From Candidatus Krumholzibacteriota bacterium (lineage in GTDB: Bacteria > Krumholzibacteriota > Krumholzibacteriia > JAJRXK01): a stretch of DNA of 64,000 nucleotides. Under the pieces are notes generated by a model. It was not told the DNA's origin. It searched no databases and saw nothing but the letters and a program-made list of their open reading frames with translations. Positions 7,869 through 17,472 of this stretch are shown here, one piece after another (the stretch's first letter is position 1; the number at the start of each line of letters is the position of its first letter). Location: the NCBI GenBank assembly GCA_029262065.1, contig JAJDAC010000017.1, forward strand, positions 1 to 64,000, in the 5' to 3' direction. Both the position numbers and the translations under genes were made by a program.

Positions 7869-8020
7869 GGCGGCTCTCCTGGGGGCGGGTCCTGGGTATT
7901 GACTGCAAGGAAACCGAGACCGGAACATCGGCAGAGACAGCATACGGGTTTCCGGGCACAATTCACCTCCGAAGCATCGGTCGTTGCTTGCGACCGCGCG
8001 CCACAGTCGGAGGAAGACCG

Positions 8021-8884
8021 ATGGACATTCGACGCCGCCTCGCTACCGATTTCGCCTCTGAACACCCGGCCCAGGCGGCCAGCGTGCTGGACGGTCGGCC
8101 GGTTCTTGAAGTTGCTCCCGTACTTGCGTCGCTTCCTCGCGCCATCGGCGCCAAGGTGTTGCAGAAACTGTCGCCGGGGGTTGCTCGTCAGGTTCTGGAA
8201 TCGCTCGAACCGCAGGCGGCCGCCGAGATCGTGACCAGCATGCCGCTGGAAGCGGTGGCGGCGGCACTCCGAGGTATCGATGAAGATCGGCGAGAAGCCA
8301 TCTTGTCCGGATTGGAAGTTGAGTTCGCCGACGACCTGCGAACCGTCATTGAGTGTCCGCCGGGAACGGCCGGCGCCGTCATGGATCCGCGCTCGGTCGC
8401 GTTGCCGGCCGACCTGACCGTGGCAGAGGCCATGAGCATCTTGCAGCGCCAGGCCCAATACGTTCTGTACAACGTCTACACCGTCGATCGAGATGGAATG
8501 CTGATCGGCGTCTTCAATCTGCAGGCGCTGATGGCCGCCTCGTCGCGTGACCTGGTCTCGACGATCATGCAACCGGCCAACCACCGGCTGTTGGTCACGG
8601 CCGATCACCGCGCCATCGTAGAACACGAGGGGTGGCGTACCGTGTACTCCCTGCCCGTGGTGAACGAGAAGGGTCAGTACGTGGGAGCTATCCGGTATCG
8701 AACTCTGCGTCGCCTCGAGTCCGAGTCCAGCCGGGCAGGTACCGAGGCTGTCACGGCGGCTGCCCTGGGAGATCTGTTCCGCACGGGCATTGGCGGGGTC
8801 ATCGAGGCCCTGTCGGGAATGGTAGGCGCGCCCGGCTCCGAGGGCGGTCGAGGGCCGACGCCACCGAAGGGAGTGGAATCATGA
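8021..8884 (+). CDS. MgtE N-domain plus CBS-domain protein lacking the membrane channel
   Basis: 287 residues from the ATG at 8021, which has a strong ribosome site (GGAGGAAGACC). Residues ~20-125 are the helical MgtE_N superhelix (VLDGRPVLEVAPVLASLPRA; ALRGIDEDRREAILSGL). Residues ~115-235 are a CBS pair starting CPPGTAGAVMDPRSVALPAD and including a nucleotide/Mg-sensing-type second CBS (YSLPVVNEKGQYVGAIRYRT). Transmembrane helices are absent. Its stop overlaps the ATG of the full-length MgtE by four bases. By family knowledge these domains sense cytosolic Mg2+ and gate the pore, so this could be a soluble regulatory subunit or a second gating ring. That role is inference. Confidence 0.85.
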   Translation: MDIRRRLATDFASEHPAQAASVLDGRPVLEVAPVLASLPRAIGAKVLQKLSPGVARQVLESLEPQAAAEIVTSMPLEAVAAALRGIDEDRREAILSGLEVEFADDLRTVIECPPGTAGAVMDPRSVALPADLTVAEAMSILQRQAQYVLYNVYTVDRDGMLIGVFNLQALMAASSRDLVSTIMQPANHRLLVTADHRAIVEHEGWRTVYSLPVVNEKGQYVGAIRYRTLRRLESESSRAGTEAVTAAALGDLFRTGIGGVIEALSGMVGAPGSEGGRGPTPPKGVES

Positions 8885-10194
8885 TCCCAACCAGCAAGGT
8901 CGATGCGACCCTGGATCGTCTGGCCGCGGCCTACGCCGATCACCATCCGGCCCTGGTCGCGCGTGTTGTCGAGAGCGCAAGCCTCGACGAGGCGAGCGAG
9001 TTCCTGGCCTCGGCCAGTAGGTCACGGGCCATCGAAATCCTGCGCCGGCTCACGCCGACGACGGCCAGCGGAGCTCTGACCCAGATGGATGTGCCGAAGG
9101 CCGGCCGTCTTCTCTCGAAGCTCGACCTGCATCGAGCCGCGGCAATCCTGGCCGGCATGGATGACAAGCCACAGCAGGAGTGTATCGAGCAGCTCGATCC
9201 CGAGCTGGCGCAGGAACTACGGGCGCTCATGGCGTTTCCCGCCGGCACCGCCGGCAGCCTCATGGATCCGCGCGTGACGACCTTTCGCCCCGATGCTCTC
9301 GTTCGTGACGTGATCCCTCGTCTGCGCGAGATTCGGCGTCGTCGACTGCAGGACGTGTTCCTGGTCGACGAGGACGATCACCTGGTTGGGTCGGTGGGTC
9401 TGGCCGATGTCATTCTCGCGGCCCCCGATGACCGACTCGACGAGATTGCCGATCTAGAACCTCCCCGAGTCACAGCGTTCGCGCCGCGCGAGGAAATCAT
9501 GGAGACCCTCGAGAACCGGCGGGTGCGCAGTCTTCCCGTCGTGGACTTCGAAGGTCGGATTCTGGGCGTGCTGCGACAGAACGAGCTGATCCAGGCCGCA
9601 CGACAGGCAACCTCCACCAATCTGGTAACCATGGTTGGCGCGGGCCGCGACGAGCGAGCCCTCTCTCCTGCCTTGTTCGCGGTCCGCAAGCGGCTTCCCT
9701 GGCTCGAAATCAATCTGGTTACGGCCTTCCTCGCCGCGGCCGTCGTGGGCCTTTTCGAGGACATCATCGCGCGCAATACGGCGCTGGCAATCCTGCTTCC
9801 GGTGGTGGCTGGCCAGTCGGGGAACACAGGAGCTCAAGCTCTGGCCGTCACCATGCGAGGATTGGCGCTGCGCGAGGTCCGACTCCACCAATGGATTCGA
9901 ATCTCGTTGAAGGAACTTACGGTCGGGGCAGTGAACGGGGTCGCGGTCGCGATCACGACCGGCGTTGCCGTCTTCTTGTGGAGTCGTTCGTGGGGCCTGG
10001 CTCTCGTCATTGCTTCGTCCATGATCGTATCCATGACCGCGGCGGGACTGTCAGGGGCCGTGATTCCCATGTTGCTTACGCGGCTAGGGCAGGACCCGGC
10101 CCAATCTTCTTCGATCGTGCTCACCACGGTGACCGATGTGGTTGGGTTTTTCAGCTTCCTGGGCATTGCAACCCTGCTGTCGAGGTTTCTCTGA
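8881..10194 (+). CDS. mgtE: Magnesium transporter MgtE
   Basis: 437 residues from the ATG at 8881 (ATGA overlap with the preceding gene). Domain order is the usual one. An MgtE_N helical domain (~10-130) comes first, then a CBS pair (~120-260, beginning FPAGTAGSLMDPRVTTFRPD). A plug helix and a five-helix membrane domain from ~270 follow (LPWLEINLVTAFLAAAVVGL; VVAGQSGNTGAQALAVTMRG; LTTVTDVVGFFSFLGIATLL). The family-typical GNTGAQ and TTVTDVVGFF motifs line the ion path. Imports Mg2+ (possibly Co2+) through the inner membrane. Length is near the family average (~450). The upstream gene duplicates its soluble half. Confidence 0.93.
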   Translation: MIPTSKVDATLDRLAAAYADHHPALVARVVESASLDEASEFLASASRSRAIEILRRLTPTTASGALTQMDVPKAGRLLSKLDLHRAAAILAGMDDKPQQECIEQLDPELAQELRALMAFPAGTAGSLMDPRVTTFRPDALVRDVIPRLREIRRRRLQDVFLVDEDDHLVGSVGLADVILAAPDDRLDEIADLEPPRVTAFAPREEIMETLENRRVRSLPVVDFEGRILGVLRQNELIQAARQATSTNLVTMVGAGRDERALSPALFAVRKRLPWLEINLVTAFLAAAVVGLFEDIIARNTALAILLPVVAGQSGNTGAQALAVTMRGLALREVRLHQWIRISLKELTVGAVNGVAVAITTGVAVFLWSRSWGLALVIASSMIVSMTAAGLSGAVIPMLLTRLGQDPAQSSSIVLTTVTDVVGFFSFLGIATLLSRFL

Positions 10195-10292
10195 TCGACG
10201 GCGGTGGGTCTGACCGCACATCGTCCGCCCCTCGGACGCTTCACACCGCGCGCGACCTCCGCGACGCAAGTTGCGCCTCGTCTCTCCCCGTG

Positions 10293-10380
10293 CAGGCCAA
10301 CATTCCACCCCACATTGCGGACACAGCAGCGGGTCGACCTCGAAGATCTTCCGCAGCAATCGCTGCGTGGCTTCGTGCGC
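10293..10380 (-). pseudogene. Fragment resembling the zinc-finger end of an IS91-type transposase
   Basis: About 29 codons on the minus strand read HEATQRLLRKIFEVDPLLCP then QCG. This pattern (F-x-V/L-D-x-L-x-C-P-x-C-G) is common near the C-terminus of IS91/ISCR-like transposases. The similarity then fades into low-complexity arginine-rich codons. No other part of such an element is near. The 3' side abuts the mgtE stop and the 5' side a hairpin at 10408-10438. Confidence 0.4.
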
Positions 10381-10407
10381 ACAGAGGGGCAGGATCGAGA
10401 GCAGAGC

Positions 10408-10438
10408 GAGACCCCACCGGCATCTCCGGCGGGGTCTC
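10408..10438. terminator. Probable bidirectional transcription terminator
   Basis: GAGACCCCACCGG and CCGGCGGGGTCTC pair over 13 bases with one A/G mismatch and a 5-base loop. It lies between the convergent mgtE and the cysteine-rich lipoprotein gene. No long T-run is visible, so intrinsic termination would rest on the very stable stem. Confidence 0.5.
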
Positions 10439-10464
10439 CATCCCGTTTCAGTAATACGCCGCCA

Positions 10465-11013
10465 TCACGGGCACTCCAAGCAGCCGGCACGGAGCACGGG
10501 CAGGCTACCCGAGGCGCCGTTGAAGTTCACCTCGCCGTCGCACTCATACTTTCCCGTGGCCTGATTGTAGCTGCAGTCCTGTGCGGGGTTGCTCATTACC
10601 GCGCCCGCGAGATCATAGTTGGAATAGAACGGGTCGCATCGCTCGGCGGGGTCGGTGTCGGGGCAGACCGCGCACGTGAACTGGTCGTATACGTCCTTCT
10701 TGAGCGCGTCGAGGGCAGCCATGTCCATGGCGTGGAGCAGGGTGCTTCCGCTGCCGCTGCCCGTGCCCGTGGCCGCGTCGGGCGTGTACTCGCTGGTGGT
10801 CTCGTTGCACAGACGGTACTCCTCGAGAGTGGGCTCGATGACCGCCGCGCCGTCGCCGCGATAGGACTGGACCTCCTTGGCCAACGAAGCGCTCTCGACG
10901 TTCGATGGGCTCGACGATACGAGCGAGGCCTCTTCGTCTCCACAGCCCACGATGCCGAATGTCGCCGTCACCAGAATCAAGGTGATGAACGGTCGTTGAT
11001 TCCATACCTGCAT
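10465..11013 (-). CDS. Cysteine-rich lipoprotein, member A of a tandem family
   Basis: 182 residues from the ATG at 11013 (GGAGATAGCA ribosome site). The signal peptide ends in a lipobox (GIVGC), so the mature protein should be lipid-anchored. The mature part has eight cysteines in a pattern shared with the two next genes: YRLC, then TSEYT, a Gly/Ser-rich stretch, QFTCAVC, RCD, QDC, YECDGEV-F, and a closing AGCLEC. I recognise no known family. Even cysteine number and conserved spacing suggest four disulfides or a metal site outside the cytoplasm. No catalytic motif is visible. Transcribed last of the three. Confidence 0.72.
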   Translation of the reverse strand: MQVWNQRPFITLILVTATFGIVGCGDEEASLVSSSPSNVESASLAKEVQSYRGDGAAVIEPTLEEYRLCNETTSEYTPDAATGTGSGSGSTLLHAMDMAALDALKKDVYDQFTCAVCPDTDPAERCDPFYSNYDLAGAVMSNPAQDCSYNQATGKYECDGEVNFNGASGSLPVLRAGCLECP

Positions 11014-11056
11014 TGCTATCTCCTTCACTACTTGTCTGGGGAGTCGAAATGGGGGA

Positions 11057-11584
11057 TTACTCGTCGCAGTCTTCGCAGCCGGCATCGGCCGTGGGGGTGG
11101 GTGCGCCGGGTACCTGGAAGGTCACTTCGCCGTCGCAGCCCCACAGGCCCGTGACAGGATCCTTCGAGCAGTCATTCACCGGATCGGTGACCACTGCCCC
11201 GGCGGAGTCGGCGCCGCCGTCGATCTTGTCGCAGGGATCTTCTTCTCCCTCGCAGGTCTTGCAACTGAACTGATCCTTGGCCGCCTTGTACAGCGCGTCC
11301 CAGCAGGCGTTCTGCATTGCTTCATTGATGGTCGGGTGGCCGCTGCTCTCACCTTCACCGGTCGTCGATTCCGGTGTGTACGTGCTCGTGGTTCCGTCGC
11401 AGTTTCGGTACTCGTCGAGCGGTTTTGGTTCGGCGACAACGGCTTCGCCGAGGGACTCGCGAGCGTGGGCTTGCGGTGTGGTTGCGGTGGTCATGAGATG
11501 GACGGAAACGGCAGCGGCCATCACCACCAGAATGTAGAACACCGAATCCCGGTGGGCGCGCATTGCATCTGTCATTGAACGCAT
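11057..11584 (-). CDS. Cysteine-rich exported protein, member B of the tandem family
   Basis: 175 residues from the ATG at 11584 (AGGAG, seven bases upstream). It has an N-terminal hydrophobic segment (VFYILVVMAAAVSVHLM) and a possible signal peptidase I site (PQAHA), but no lipobox, unlike its two neighbours. The mature part repeats the family pattern: EYRNCDGTTSTYT, a Gly/Glu/Ser stretch, ALYKAAKDQFSCKTCEG, PCD, NDC, LWGCDGEVTF and AGCEDC. A ninth cysteine (NACWDAL) is extra. Function unknown. It sits 43 bases before member A and the same distance after member C, so the three look like one transcription unit. Confidence 0.7.
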   Translation of the reverse strand: MRSMTDAMRAHRDSVFYILVVMAAAVSVHLMTTATTPQAHARESLGEAVVAEPKPLDEYRNCDGTTSTYTPESTTGEGESSGHPTINEAMQNACWDALYKAAKDQFSCKTCEGEEDPCDKIDGGADSAGAVVTDPVNDCSKDPVTGLWGCDGEVTFQVPGAPTPTADAGCEDCDE

Positions 11585-11626
11585 GGAAGTTCTCCTAGAA
11601 TGGGTATTGGAGGCGTTGGGGAGGGC

Positions 11627-12193
11627 CTACTGGCCGAGGACCTGAACCTCAGCCTTCGTCTTGTCGTCGTTGTCGCAGAGGTCGCAGCCGGCCTGAGCGG
11701 CCGACTGGCGCCCGGGAGTGCTGTCGAAGTTCACCCAGTCGAAGCAGTACCAGGTGCCGTCGATGAGTTCGCAGTTCTCGTCTTCATCTTCAAGCTCGGC
11801 CCCACCCATCGCGATGGTGCCCCACTTGCGATCGCACGGTTCGGGGAACTCGCCCGGGCAATCGTCGCACTCGAACTGTCCCGATATGTCTTCCTTGATT
11901 GCGTTCTCGATGGTGTCGGTGATTGCGTCTTGCTTGGATCCTCCTTGACCCTCAGCGACGGCACGGTCGGCATCCACCGTGTAGACCGACATCGTGCCGT
12001 CGCAGTCCCGATACTGTGTGGGGAAGGCTTGCGAAGGAACGGCGAGGTCGGTCTTCGACGTGGCGTCGGGAGCAGTGAGCTCCGGACTCTGGTCATTGCA
12101 GCCGCCGAGTGCCATGGGGAGTAGGCTGGTGGCGATCACGCTCAGGACTACGCGACGCCATCCGGCGTGGCGCAGGCGAAACACTGAATTCAT
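11627..12193 (-). CDS. Cysteine-rich lipoprotein, member C of the tandem family
   Basis: 188 residues. The signal peptide (RRVVLSVIATSLLPMALGG) ends in a lipobox LGGC. The family core follows: QYRDCDGTMSVYT, a helix-like DAITDTIENAIKEDI, GQFECDDCPG, PCD, ENCELIDGTWYCFDWVNF and AGCDLC. It ends in an acidic/basic tail (DNDDKTKAEVQVLGQ) absent from the other two. First gene of the trio, reading away from the divergent lipoprotein gene at 12364. The shared promoter region holds a 7-bp inverted repeat. No known family recognised. Confidence 0.72.
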   Translation of the reverse strand: MNSVFRLRHAGWRRVVLSVIATSLLPMALGGCNDQSPELTAPDATSKTDLAVPSQAFPTQYRDCDGTMSVYTVDADRAVAEGQGGSKQDAITDTIENAIKEDISGQFECDDCPGEFPEPCDRKWGTIAMGGAELEDEDENCELIDGTWYCFDWVNFDSTPGRQSAAQAGCDLCDNDDKTKAEVQVLGQ

Positions 12194-12363: not shown

Positions 12364-13455
12364 ATGTCCATACAATCGATACGTGCGGTGATCGTGGTCG
12401 TCACGATGGTGGGTTTGGCCGTGGGCATTGGCTGTGAGCGGGGCTCGGATACGCCCACGGCTGCCCATGCGCCGAGCAAGAACATCGAGCAGCCGGCACC
12501 GGTCCTGGATGACCCGTTCTTCGAGGATGTCTGGGAGACCGTGTACGTCACGCCGTTCTCCGTGGTGACAGGGAACGTGAGTTGGACGTTCGTAAGCCAG
12601 GAAGTGGCCGCGCCGGGAACCTACACCGGCGTAAACAACTCAGGGGAACCGTTCACGTTGGACGTCCAGGATGTGGACTACTACGACGCGGCAACCCTGA
12701 GTTCATGGGATCCGCCCAACGCTGCCGTGTACTCGGCCCACAACGTGGCCGTAGCCGTGGTGTACGGGACGTACTCGGGGCCGGCGGGATCGTTGGTTCT
12801 GCGCGGATGTGTGCGCTCGCATGACTACGATGGAGTCCGCTATCACTACTACTTTCCGTTCGCATACGACGGGCAGAACACCTTGGTGGGTAGTTTGTCG
12901 TCGGCCAAGAGGGTCGGAGGTGTTGAGCTCCTTGAAAAACGAGCGGAGACCTCCGAATGCACCGGCAGCTGGATGAACTGCGACGAGAACTCCGAGCGAC
13001 CCTCGAAGCCAAGCTTCGAATGTCCTCGGGGCAAGACCATGGACAGCGGCTGCGAAGAGGACTGCGACGAGGAGTTCGAGGGAGACATCGACCGGGCGAT
13101 CGAAGACGGTTGCAAACGACTGTGCCAGGCTGCTGAAGCCCTCGACACGGCACTCGACGGTTGCGACCTGGGCGGAGGTCTCGGGGCGGGCGCGGCGATC
13201 GTCGGAACGTTCGCGGTGTCCAATCCCATAGGACTGGTGGCGCTAGTCGTTGGTGACCTTGCGTTGGCCGGCGGATACAGACTCTGCGTCGACGGTGCGT
13301 GGGATGCCTACAACACCAGCGTCGGTCAAGCGCAGACCGCGTACCAGGAAGACGTCGACCAGGCGAACAGCGACTACGAGAGTTGCGCCAGCGACTGTTG
13401 CGTGGACGAATTGATTCCGGTGGAAGAAATCTACGAGATCATTGGTGAAGGCTGA
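12364..13455 (+). CDS. Putative lipoprotein with cysteine-rich C-terminal region, unknown function
   Basis: 363 residues from the ATG at 12364, which follows a good ribosome site (AAAGGAGATATTC). The in-frame upstream codons from 12277 are not needed. The signal peptide ends VGIGC (lipobox), then a Thr/Ala/Pro linker. Residues ~55-190 look like a beta-rich domain with many Tyr and Val. Residues ~200-285 are cysteine-rich and acidic (SECTGSWMNC, DSGCEEDCDEEFEGD, DGCKRLCQAAEAL). A glycine-rich hydrophobic stretch (AAIVGTFAVSNPIGLVALVV) could be a membrane hairpin. A helical tail with CASDCC ends it. I recognise no family. Divergent from the cysteine-rich trio, with which it may share function. 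Confidence 0.68.
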   Translation: MSIQSIRAVIVVVTMVGLAVGIGCERGSDTPTAAHAPSKNIEQPAPVLDDPFFEDVWETVYVTPFSVVTGNVSWTFVSQEVAAPGTYTGVNNSGEPFTLDVQDVDYYDAATLSSWDPPNAAVYSAHNVAVAVVYGTYSGPAGSLVLRGCVRSHDYDGVRYHYYFPFAYDGQNTLVGSLSSAKRVGGVELLEKRAETSECTGSWMNCDENSERPSKPSFECPRGKTMDSGCEEDCDEEFEGDIDRAIEDGCKRLCQAAEALDTALDGCDLGGGLGAGAAIVGTFAVSNPIGLVALVVGDLALAGGYRLCVDGAWDAYNTSVGQAQTAYQEDVDQANSDYESCASDCCVDELIPVEEIYEIIGEG

Positions 13456-13469
13456 GTCGGTCTCGAAAC

Positions 13470-13500
13470 CCGGGCGGGGGCTCCAAGGCGGGCCCCCGCC
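13470..13500 (+). terminator. GC-rich hairpin after the lipoprotein gene
   Basis: GGGCGGGGGC and GCCCCCGCCC are perfect 10-bp inverted repeats with a 10-base loop, starting about 15 bases after the stop at 13455. It lacks a T-run but is well placed to end transcription of the upstream gene. Confidence 0.5.
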
Positions 13501-13754
13501 CCAACAGCGGGGAAGCCGGGCCGATCCAACCAGGCGCTGGTCTGCACGACGAGCGGACGAAGGAATACACGAACCAGTCCAGCGATGGAACCATGCGGCC
13601 CGCCGTGTCGAGTCTTGCGACGGTGGAATCGGCGTGCTGCAGCAGGTTGGAGAGGGCACCACCGAACTGGAGCTTGGGGCGGGTTGGGGAAAGGGCATGC
13701 GGCACGAACGCGTCGACGGTCTCGCCCTCCTCCCTCCCCCAAAGAGCGCCTTGT

Positions 13755-14060
13755 CAGAAAATGGCCCGGAAGAGAAGCCGGCCGGTTCATTTCGGCTCTC
13801 TGCTCCGTATCCCAATCCGGCCAATCCGTCAGCTTCCATCTCGTTCTCGACCCGGCGAAGCGGTCCCGTTACTCTTGCCATCTACAACCTTCAGGGTCGT
13901 AGAGTTCGTGGTCTCGTGAACTCGCCCCTAGGGGCTGGAGCACACACGGGTTTGGCAAGGGATCGACGACTACGGAGCCCCTGTAGCGAGCGGAACGTAC
14001 GTGGTGGTACTTAGGACTCTCGAAGGGGAACACTCCCAGAGGCTAACTCTCCTAAAATGA
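13755..14060 (+). pseudogene. FlgD-like C-terminal domain remnant with a frameshift
   Basis: The first part reads FRLSAPYPNPANPSASISFS then VTLAIYNLQGRRVRGLVNSP, the start of a FlgD-like Ig domain. After the GGG at 13948-13950 the domain continues one frame over (VWQGIDDYGAPVASGTYVVV, ending RLTLLK and TGA at 14058-14060). One extra G would explain the shift. Upstream (13456-13754) I see no protein-like sequence, so the main body of the gene is missing. Either a decayed secreted-protein gene, or a sequencing error in a domain whose gene was already truncated. The final TGA overlaps the next ATG by three bases. Confidence 0.68.
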
Positions 14061-15211
14061 AACTCATGCATCATGCGGCCGCGGGAGTGCTATTCGCTCT
14101 CGCGGCAGCGACATCAGCTAAGGCAGATACCATCGTTGTCGCGAAAGACGGAAGCGGCGACTTTTTGGTACTTCAGGACGGCATTGAGAGCGCAGCGCCA
14201 GGAGACACGGTACTTGTTCGGCCGGGGCGGTATGACGATACGCTTACCTTTAGCCTGCCGGGGTGGACCGACACCGTTCACGCCGGTGTTGAGGTAGACG
14301 ATCTCACAATTCGAGGCGAAGACCGAGATTCAGTCATCATAGGCCCCACGGTGCCCAACTTCACGGGCTTTGGGCCAAAAGGCATAGTCACCCAGGTTGG
14401 AATCAGCTCGCTCCGAGTCGAGAATCTCACCATCGAAAACGTGCGTGAGGCCCTCTACATCGCTGAGTACACGACAGTAGAAGGTTGCACTCTTCGAGAC
14501 TGCTACATAGGCCTGATCGGATTTTCCTCGTCAAGTCTGCTTCTTAGGGACTCAGTCATTCGCAATTGTGTGGTGGGAGCGACCACTGGCCCTCCTTCCC
14601 GGGACCCTACTTTCAATGGCGTTACGTTTCGGGAGAACGACACAGCCATGGAGATAATCAACACGCCCGGCGCTCTTGTCTTGGACTCCCATTTTCGCGC
14701 CTGCGGTATGGGTATCATCATTCAACAGGGGTCGGCCGGAACCATGATGAGATGTACCTTTGATAGCCTGCTAACGAACAATCTTATCGCGATTGATGCT
14801 CAAATCGACGTTCAAGACTCGGACTTCGGAGGCGTGGGGGAGAATTCTGTCCTGCTTGCCGCTGCTGCGACGCTAACAGGCGTACGAAACAGGTTCCACC
14901 CCTCACCCACTCTCTTTCTCTTTAGCACGGCCGGAGCCGCAAGTCTCTCGGACAGCGAGCTGCTCTTCGGGAGTGGTTTTGCTGCTCGACTTCGCGATGG
15001 CGAATACACCAGCGATCCCCCGGTTTTAATCGACTTTCGTGGAAACTATTGGGGAGCCGGAGTCGACTCCACACAGATAGCCGCCGCGATCCTTGACGGG
15101 AACGACAATCCAGAAACGAAGGCGTTCGTACACTTTGTTCCCTTCTCCACAACGCCAATACCCACGCAAGCAATCGGCTTCAGCGACCTAAAGGCTCGCT
15201 TCGGGAACTAG
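14057..15211 (+). CDS. Exported right-handed parallel beta-helix protein
   Basis: 384 residues with a cleavable signal peptide (residues 1-23, ending TSAKA). The mature start IVVAKDGSGDFLVLQDGIES then AAPGDTVLVRPGRY is the classic opening of pectin-lyase-fold proteins. Repeated rungs follow (ISSLRVENLTIENVREALYI, TTVEGCTLRDCYIGLIGFSS, SLLLRDSVIRNCVVGATTG, ALVLDSHFRACGMGIIIQQG). The C-terminus has the NYWG signature and DGNDNPETKAFVHFVPFS. No catalytic triad of a polysaccharide lyase is evident, so it may bind rather than cleave a glycan. A second copy, reduced to its C-terminus, lies at 16574-16899 beyond the insertion sequence. Ends without a FlgD-like domain. Confidence 0.82.
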   Translation: MKLMHHAAAGVLFALAAATSAKADTIVVAKDGSGDFLVLQDGIESAAPGDTVLVRPGRYDDTLTFSLPGWTDTVHAGVEVDDLTIRGEDRDSVIIGPTVPNFTGFGPKGIVTQVGISSLRVENLTIENVREALYIAEYTTVEGCTLRDCYIGLIGFSSSSLLLRDSVIRNCVVGATTGPPSRDPTFNGVTFRENDTAMEIINTPGALVLDSHFRACGMGIIIQQGSAGTMMRCTFDSLLTNNLIAIDAQIDVQDSDFGGVGENSVLLAAAATLTGVRNRFHPSPTLFLFSTAGAASLSDSELLFGSGFAARLRDGEYTSDPPVLIDFRGNYWGAGVDSTQIAAAILDGNDNPETKAFVHFVPFSTTPIPTQAIGFSDLKARFGN

Positions 15212-15405
15212 CCCCAACTCGTCGGAAATCGATGCTGCATCGAGCCCACAGACGAGTCGTTCAATGGTCTTACTGAGAGCCTCGGTTCCCCGCTGTCTCT
15301 CCGCCAAGGATTGCGGTATCCTCGATGATCGTGCATGGGGCTCCCAGTACCTCCCCGGAATTCGAAGGCCAGTTCCGTAAGCGGTCAGGGAACGGAGTCA
15401 GCAAT
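15212..15405. other. Unassigned flank between the beta-helix gene and the insertion sequence
   Basis: Short open frames exist on both strands here, but none carries a motif I recognise. In particular the plus strand does not show an N-terminal or middle part of the beta-helix paralogue whose end lies beyond the insertion sequence. A minus-strand frame reading EALSKTIERLVCGLDAASIS is protein-like but too short to assign. Confidence 0.5.
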
Positions 15406-16573
15406 CGCGTAGTGTCCGAAAACTCGAACGACACATTCACGCGGCCCTCCGGTGATAATAGCTCAGCATTCCGCCAAGTCGTCGTCGAGCAGTCACGCGG
15501 CCATAACTCTGAGGTTCCGCCCCACTGACGAGCCGATTGCCGATACCCTGATGGCTCCGCTCGTCGTGGTAGTGCTCGACGTACTCCCTGATCGCTTTCT
15601 CGAGCGACCCCTGCCCGACGAAGATCATCTGGTCGAGACACTCCGACTTGATGGACCTGATGACTCGCTCGGCATGGGCATTCATGTTCGGGGCCTGGTA
15701 GGCCGTCAGCAGAATCTCTATCCCAACATCTTCGAGTATCGACCTGAAGGGCGGCGAGAAGATCGAGTCGCGATCGATGATGAGGAAGCTCTTCCCATTG
15801 AGGAATCCATCCTCGTAGTCCGTCAGGTTTCGCGCGATCTGTTCCATCCAGGCCGAGACCGGATTCGTCGTGGTGCCAGCGATATGGACGCGGCGTGTGG
15901 CGATATCGATCACTACGAGAGTGTAGTGAGTCACCAACCCGCGAGCTGTCCACACTTCGGTGGTGAAGAAATCTGCAGCCGCGATCAGGTGGGCATGGGA
16001 TCGAACGAATGTCGTCCTGCTCATAGGCCGATCGGGTGAGGGCTTGATCCCATGCTCCTTCAATGTCTTGGCGATTGTGCTGCGAGCCACGCGGTGGTCC
16101 AAGTGCTTCAACGCACCCTGGATGCGAGCGTATCCCCAGCTCGGGTTGTCTTCGGCCATTTCCACGATCAGGCGTCGGATTTCCTTCATAACACCAGGTC
16201 GCCCAATACTCTTTCGTGGATATGTCCACTTCGCGGCGATGAGTCGGCGATGCCAGACCAGGATCGTGTCTGGCGTGACAATCGTGGCGATCCTCTTCAG
16301 AATCCTACGGCCTAGCGGTCGCCCTTTGGCCGCGAGTCGCCGACGCTGATCATCCGTCAGGCGCATTCGGTGGCCGCTGGACTCAATCTGCTCTTTCAAG
16401 ACGCGGTTCTCTTCGACCAGGTAGTCGATCACACAGGTTTGCTGGCGACCAACCCAGCCCGCGAACGTCGCCAAAAGTAGCTGCAATTGGATTGTGGGGC
16501 TCATCAGGGGAGTCTATCAGAGCACCCGTAAGTCTAGCAGTTTCAGTTCGTTCGAGTTTTCGGACACTACGCG
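15406..16573 (-). mobile_element. Insertion sequence with 26-bp perfect terminal inverted repeats
   Basis: The two ends (15406-15431 and 16548-16573) are perfect 26-bp inverted copies starting cgcgtagtgtccgaaaactc. The 1.17-kb element carries one transposase gene on the minus strand that nearly fills it. Size, end sequence and a single DDE/rve transposase fit the IS481/IS3-like group. No clear target-site duplication is seen at the outer edges (..gcaat / ..caagg), suggesting later rearrangement. A solo copy of the end lies at 6731. Confidence 0.88.
15437..16504 (-). CDS. DDE transposase with integrase (rve) core
   Basis: 355 residues. The N-terminal third has helix-turn-helix character (RMRLTDDQRRRLAAKGRPLG; NPSWGYARIQGALKHLDHRV, a typical HTH_21-like stretch). 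The catalytic core has the three acidic residues in context: D in AADFFTTEVWT, D in IDRDSIFSPPFR and E in NAHAERVIRSIKSECLD. The tail HYHDERSHQGIGN is typical of integrase-core transposases. Open and full length, so the element may still be mobile. It catalyses cut and transfer of its own ends. Confidence 0.92.
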   Translation of the reverse strand: MSPTIQLQLLLATFAGWVGRQQTCVIDYLVEENRVLKEQIESSGHRMRLTDDQRRRLAAKGRPLGRRILKRIATIVTPDTILVWHRRLIAAKWTYPRKSIGRPGVMKEIRRLIVEMAEDNPSWGYARIQGALKHLDHRVARSTIAKTLKEHGIKPSPDRPMSRTTFVRSHAHLIAAADFFTTEVWTARGLVTHYTLVVIDIATRRVHIAGTTTNPVSAWMEQIARNLTDYEDGFLNGKSFLIIDRDSIFSPPFRSILEDVGIEILLTAYQAPNMNAHAERVIRSIKSECLDQMIFVGQGSLEKAIREYVEHYHDERSHQGIGNRLVSGAEPQSYGRVTARRRLGGMLSYYHRRAA

Positions 16574-16899
16574 CAAGGGAATCCCGATTCAGCGGTGGCC
16601 TTGACCGCACCATCGATGTCGGTCGGGACTGTACGGTCCAGGTGAATAATTGCGATATTCTTAACGGTGGCAGGTCCACGGTTTGGGCCACCGGAACAGG
16701 TACAGCCCCGATAGAAGTGGACTTCACCAACAACTACTGGGGTACGGTGGATGCTGCGGTGATTGCGGAGTGGATCCTCGACGGAAACGACAACCCCGTC
16801 TGGCCGGCGAGAGTTCGATTCGAGCCGTTCCTGAACCGCCCTGTTCCCACTGCCCGACAATCGATCAGCTTGTTCAAGGCCCGTTTCAAAGGCCAATGA
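16574..16899 (+). pseudogene. C-terminal remnant of a second beta-helix protein
   Basis: The frame entering from the insertion-sequence end reads VQVNNCDILNGGRSTVWATG, then VDFTNNYWGTVDAAVIAEWI, LDGNDNPVWPARVRFEPFLN and a final SLFKARFKGQ. This parallels the end of the protein at 14057-15211 (NYWGAGVD..ILDGNDNPETKAFVHFVPF..SDLKARFGN). Only about 105 codons are left and there is no start. Its N-terminal part is missing, removed by insertion or by an adjacent deletion. It converges on frr. Confidence 0.78.
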
Positions 16900-16914: not shown

Positions 16915-17472
16915 TCAGACCTCCATGATCTCCGCTTCTTTGGCCTCCAACACCTGATCGACCGTCTTCACCCACTCGTCGGTGAGCTTCTGCACCTGGT
17001 CGGTGCCGCGCTTCAGGTCGTCTTCGGTAATGTCCGAATCGCCCTTGGCCTTCTTCAACTGCTCGTTGGCGTCGCGCCGCACGCCGCGAATGGAAACCTT
17101 CGCGTCCTCGCCCTGCTTGCGCGCTTGCTTCACGTATTCCTTGCGGCGCTCTTCGTTCAGCGGAGGAATGGGCAGGCGAATCACCGTGCCATCGCTGGTC
17201 GGCGTGATGCCCAGGTCGCTGATCATGATGGCCTTTTCTATGGCGCTGATCTGGCCCTTGTCGAACGGGGTTACCGTCAGCAGGCGCGCCTCGGGCGTGC
17301 CGATGGTGGCAACCTGATTGAGAGGCATCCTCGAGCCGTAGGCTTCGACCATGATCCGATCGAGCATGCGCGGCGAGGCCTTGCCCGTGCGCAGGGATGA
17401 CAATTGGTCCTTCAAAGACTCCACACATTTTTCCATGTGCGTCTTGGTGTCGGTGTACAGCGCGTCCAACAT
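16915..17472 (-). CDS. frr: Ribosome recycling factor
   Basis: 185 residues, the family length. The opening DTKTHMEKCVESLKDQLSSL, the conserved RTGKASPRMLDRIMVEAYGS, and PFDKGQISAIEKAIMISDLG with NEERRKEYVKQARKQGEDAK are all typical. With EF-G it splits post-termination 70S ribosomes. Last gene of the rpsB-tsf-pyrH-frr series, 15 bases after pyrH, so likely coupled. Confidence 0.96.
   Translation of the reverse strand: MLDALYTDTKTHMEKCVESLKDQLSSLRTGKASPRMLDRIMVEAYGSRMPLNQVATIGTPEARLLTVTPFDKGQISAIEKAIMISDLGITPTSDGTVIRLPIPPLNEERRKEYVKQARKQGEDAKVSIRGVRRDANEQLKKAKGDSDITEDDLKRGTDQVQKLTDEWVKTVDQVLEAKEAEIMEV

Follow-up and report, generated by a model that had tools for sequence, protein, structure and literature searches.

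Gene layout and relationship of the three paralogues

In the 64,000-nucleotide stretch of a Candidatus Krumholzibacteriota genome analysed here (the window), three neighbouring genes were found to follow one another head to tail between positions 10465 and 12193, all on the minus strand, as confirmed by translation. They are transcribed in the order 12193-11627 (paralogue 3), 11584-11057 (paralogue 2) and 11013-10465 (paralogue 1), with intergenic gaps of 42 and 43 bp, respectively, and a plausible ribosome-binding site precedes each of them. The three genes are probably co-transcribed; no promoter or terminator match was found at the locus. The positions assigned by an earlier, sequence-only reading of this DNA were correct except for the start of paralogue 1, for which we prefer 11013 (GAAGGAGATAGCA-ATG, with the signal peptide MQVWNQRPFITLILVTATFGIVGC) to 11085, since the latter would overlap the preceding gene and add 24 residues ahead of the signal peptide. 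The third-codon-position GC of the trio (0.74-0.84) is the same as that of the neighbouring genes. Antisense open reading frames (e.g., 10204-11154 and 11600-12124 on the plus strand) were rejected as coding frames because protein-level conservation falls on the minus strand.

The export signals were judged by eye from the sequence, a lipobox being defined as an N-terminal signal with [LVI][ASTVIG][GAS]C. By this definition, paralogues 1 and 3 are predicted lipoproteins and paralogue 2 is not, in agreement with the earlier description of two predicted lipoproteins flanking a protein with a signal peptide only. Paralogue 1 (182 aa; translation, ribosome-binding site and AlphaFold2) carries a lipoprotein signal (...LVTATFGIVG/C), a linker of about 40 residues and the eight-cysteine domain, and its C-terminal end reads ...AGCLECP. 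Paralogue 3 (188 aa; translation and AlphaFold2) has a lipoprotein signal (...LLPMALGG/C), the same eight-cysteine domain and a short charged C-terminal tail. Paralogue 2 (175 aa; translation, alignment and the ribosome-binding site AGGAG) begins with a hydrophobic stretch and a cleavable AxA-type site (PQAHA/RE), with no cysteine in the signal region. The mature forms are about 14-17 kDa, have a pI of 4.05 in all three cases and contain 0-1 histidine each. Paralogue 2 adds to the eight cysteines of the domain a ninth, located in the predicted helix (NACWDAL); lacking a lipid-bearing cysteine, it is left with an odd number, and the ninth residue could pair between molecules.

Translation, alignment and comparison with shuffled sequences bore out that these are three adjacent, related genes for signal-peptide proteins. 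An alignment of the mature domains spans 125 columns, with 46% identity between paralogues 1 and 2 and 33% otherwise, and tblastn between paralogues gave E values of 8.7e-13 and 1.9e-11. The Smith-Waterman scores were 258, 151 and 161 against shuffled maxima of 57, 66 and 68 (18-38 SD above the shuffles). With the cysteines masked, they still reached 189, 87 and 90 against shuffled maxima of 62, 51 and 56 (10-31 SD above), indicating that the likeness is not a mere matter of cysteine content. In total, 28 columns are invariant across the trio, namely all eight core cysteines, which the earlier reading had called conserved, and 20 other positions. Thirteen of these 28 columns use different synonymous codons among the three copies, which argues for conservation of the protein sequence rather than recent copying of the DNA. 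The shared motifs proposed earlier were found in all three copies in the case of YRxC, TxSxYT, QFxCxxC, CD, [DN]C, [YW]xCx3VxF and AGCxxC, but the Gly/Ser-rich stretch stands out in only two copies, the third having a weak version of it (VAEGQGGSK). Because copies 1 and 2 are the closest, copy 3 may have branched first, if rates were equal.

Directly upstream of the trio, and separated from it by a common 170-bp intergenic region, lies a divergently oriented gene on the plus strand (12364-13455; P0004), which encodes a cysteine-rich putative lipoprotein with the lipobox GIG/C (translation and ribosome-binding site) and, towards the C-terminus, a long hydrophobic segment rich in Gly and Ala. 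It showed no family match and no relative in 28 genomes, and we rejected it as a fourth paralogue (hhalign to the trio, probability 0.2); it is a possible companion of the trio.

Distribution of the family and its genomic setting

Searches of Pfam-A, NCBIfam, PHROGs and PADLOC with the trio gave no match above the cut-off. The sole Pfam/NCBIfam match, below the cut-off, was that of the CxxC stretch of paralogue 1 to the HVO_0758 zinc finger (PF23137 / NF041912; E 0.054-0.076), with 13.3 bits against a cut-off of 27 and 13.4 against 70, which does not place it in that family. This match covers 17-18 residues in paralogue 1 only, HVO_0758 itself being a small protein of 55 positions, and the CxxC stretch is the feature that paralogue 1 has in common with zinc-ribbon or HVO_0758-type proteins. 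Nothing was found among PDB sequences with the mature-domain profile, with which a chance match to XIAP (E 1.1) disappeared, or among phages and plasmids by tblastn with one paralogue or another, where a match to an Enterococcus phage (E 4) was regarded as chance. When about 85,000 GTDB genomes were scanned with a degenerate pattern, a method insensitive to remote relatives, 25 stretches matched and none of them was a relative; IMG/VR likewise yielded no relative. Literature searches also returned nothing relevant to the trio.

When whole genomes were searched with the profile, the trio was recovered from the host genome (5.77 Mb, 95.6% complete) but from none of the 79 other phylum members searched, three of which belong to the host's family. 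Among 395 genomes of Gemmatimonadota and 20 additional genomes, there was no convincing match. The candidates that did emerge were rejected one after another. The best of them, L099 from a Gemmatimonadota genome (NAMKRELSNQFEC...; hhalign probability 41), resembles the trio at a QFxC helix end and has no cysteine pattern past the first half and no clear signal peptide; its own relatives in 151 genomes were chance-level matches only, and the likeness was taken as chance. The same judgement was made for L097 (E 0.0026), whose hit frame is stop-free but without an open reading frame of at least 80 aa, and for L098 (E 0.009), which has one internal stop. The DNA of L096 (E 0.04) shows nothing recognizable as a relative, and L101 has no cysteine pattern. 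Matches in G017, G025, G018 and G036 with the full-length profile were driven by the signal peptide and vanished with the mature domain alone. Overall, the assignment of the trio to an unrecognized family, made from the sequence alone, held in family, PDB-sequence, Foldseek (PDB and BFVD) and relatives' genome searches, and alignment together with profile searching of related genomes led to no known family and to no homologue among the 79 genomes. The trio is thus a real protein family restricted to a species or genus, two levels that are indistinguishable in this search because the host genus was represented by the host genome alone.

The trio sits in a rearranged, lineage-specific region directly downstream of frr. 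In the window, rpsB-tsf-pyrH-frr run on the minus strand from 19727 to 16915, and the gene order breaks directly after frr (16915-17472). In the same-family genome G002, frr is followed by apparent uppS, cdsA, dxr, rseP and bamA in the usual order (judged by eye), and tblastn of this stretch against the window gave no match beyond frr, from which we conclude that the region has been rearranged. Downstream of frr, the interval 14057-16899 has the appearance of insertion and decay: it holds a gene for a right-handed beta-helix (NosD-like) protein (14057-15211), an integrase-core transposase gene with rve and HTH domains (15437-16504) and a fragment resembling the C-terminus of the beta-helix gene (16492-16899; 51% identity over 65 residues). 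Such a location fits the absence of the trio from related genomes, and no horizontal transfer need be invoked; the GC content of the trio is like that of its surroundings. An open reading frame at 13442-14014 (plus strand) has a partial match to the secretion-system sorting domain Por_Secre_tail (21 bits against a cut-off of 27), drops out of frame short of the expected end and is likely a gene remnant. On the other side of the trio, two adjacent mgtE-type genes occupy 7988-10194; by Pfam scan, the first has the N and CBS domains only, with no transmembrane MgtE domain, and the second is complete.

Predicted fold of the mature domain

AlphaFold2, given the three trio sequences only, modelled the mature domain of paralogue 1 with a pLDDT of 88.0 and a pTM of 0.80 and that of paralogue 3 with a pLDDT of 89.9 and a pTM of 0.83; both runs use one alignment and are hence not fully independent, and each run included, among its five models, two of far lower quality (pLDDT 59-71). 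Both models have a beta3-alpha-beta5 order, in which three strands are followed by an 18-residue helix, a short strand and four strands with a short helical turn, and the strand-rich second half bears the cysteines.

We took a significant Foldseek match or a TM of about 0.5 or more as a fold match. Foldseek searches of the PDB gave best E values of 0.89 and 0.32 for the two models and a best TM of 0.27, and those of the viral models in BFVD gave nothing convincing (best E 0.36, TM 0.35). Helicobacter pylori HP1454 (PDB 4kzs), which is secreted, as the trio is predicted to be, and ranked high in both Foldseek searches, is no real structural match (E 0.55-1.1, probability 0.15-0.21, TM 0.25-0.27). 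From this comparison with the PDB and viral models, a new fold is a possibility, not a finding. The fuller proposal, that the trio represents a new genus-restricted domain with a fold unseen in the PDB and with extracytoplasmic cysteine staples, in an organism that has no recognizable DsbB or VKOR, is put forward tentatively.

Possible roles and the chemistry of the cysteines

Apart from the cysteines, the invariant positions of the trio hold Gly, Ala, aromatics, Thr/Ser, Val and Pro, together with a single Arg, a single Gln and a single Asp. Neither His nor Glu nor Lys is invariant, which makes an enzyme active site unlikely as judged from these sequences. A rigid cysteine-stapled core on a flexible linker, with a lipid anchor or release, is most commonly used for binding, and the occurrence of tethered and soluble forms of one domain fits such a role. 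We therefore give roughly even odds to the trio being a lineage-specific, cysteine-stapled envelope domain that acts as a binding module and not as an enzyme, a function inferred for proteins for which the searches run returned no known function, partner or orthologue. On this account, the family would have arisen by duplication of one gene, and all its members would be exported across the inner membrane. In copies 1 and 3, a flexible acidic linker of 30-40 residues would connect the domain to a lipid anchor; copy 2 would be set free in soluble form. Stapling of the domain by the eight cysteines would most likely involve four disulfides made after export, and the resulting rigid scaffold with its variable acidic surface would most likely serve to recognize a ligand, whether a protein or something else, in the periplasm or at the cell surface. 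The earlier suggestion that tandem amplification points to a function profiting from variants would be one way to read three paralogues at 33-46% identity; an old duplication with ordinary divergence fits them equally well. Lineage-restricted clusters of tandem lipoprotein paralogues resemble the trio in being short, exported and head to tail, with divergent linkers, a conserved core and confinement to one lineage. The trio differs from them in its eight-cysteine core, for which no sequence relative was found, and in mixing lipidated and non-lipidated members.

These same features, i.e., lineage restriction, acidity and structural stapling, together with invariant residues that look structural, would also suit envelope or cell-surface components that have no specific ligand and were kept by drift after duplication. 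We consider this unlikely, as 28 invariant columns at 33% identity with synonymous change imply a real constraint on each copy.

Returning to the proposed binding domain, its eight cysteines would lie outside the cytoplasm, and it was reasonable of the earlier reading to expect either disulfides or a metal site there. Disulfides are plausible from the sequence. DsbB and VKOR are the known oxidants of DsbA (PMC11208910), and neither DsbB (PF02600) nor VKOR (PF07884) was detected in the 95.6%-complete host genome, a genome that encodes exported cysteine-rich proteins yet shows no such oxidant. This result counts against disulfides without dismissing them, because 4% of the genome is missing and other or uncatalysed oxidation is possible. 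The main rival to disulfides, on the cysteine pattern, would be a Cys4 metal site of zinc-ribbon or rubredoxin type formed by the CxxC pairs of QFxCxxC and AGCxxC, in which case the proteins might store, deliver or sense envelope metal. Both CxxC motifs occur in every copy, which together with the missing DsbB/VKOR and the two adjoining mgtE-like Mg transporter genes speaks for such a site. However, the proximity of mgtE may be chance, the trio has no conserved histidine, no zinc-ribbon or rubredoxin family was matched (the sole match scored 13 bits against 27 and 70), the PDB offered no fold match, and few metal sites outside the cytoplasm are built from cysteine alone; hence, we regard a metal site as improbable. 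Least probable of all is a role in competition or signalling, as the earlier reading suggested, for small proteins (bacteriocin-like, or variants of an effector/immunity kind) that tandem duplication would have diversified. The paralogues are tandem and cysteine-rich, occur in one species only among those searched and lie in a rearranged region, but two of them are probably lipid-anchored, which ill suits released toxins. None of the adjoining genes encodes an immunity protein, a protease, an exporter or a modification enzyme, and PADLOC gave no match.

Lineage-specific tandem lipoproteins are common and the function given here to the trio is a guess, so the general interest of these genes is modest; it is somewhat raised by a confidently predicted fold without a PDB match. 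If real in the laboratory, the trio would offer a small and clear-cut example of a new protein domain, with a confident AlphaFold2 fold obtained from three sequences and no match to a family or solved fold. It would also raise the question of how an eight-cysteine exported domain becomes oxidized, or whether it is metal-bound, in an organism where DsbB and VKOR were not found.
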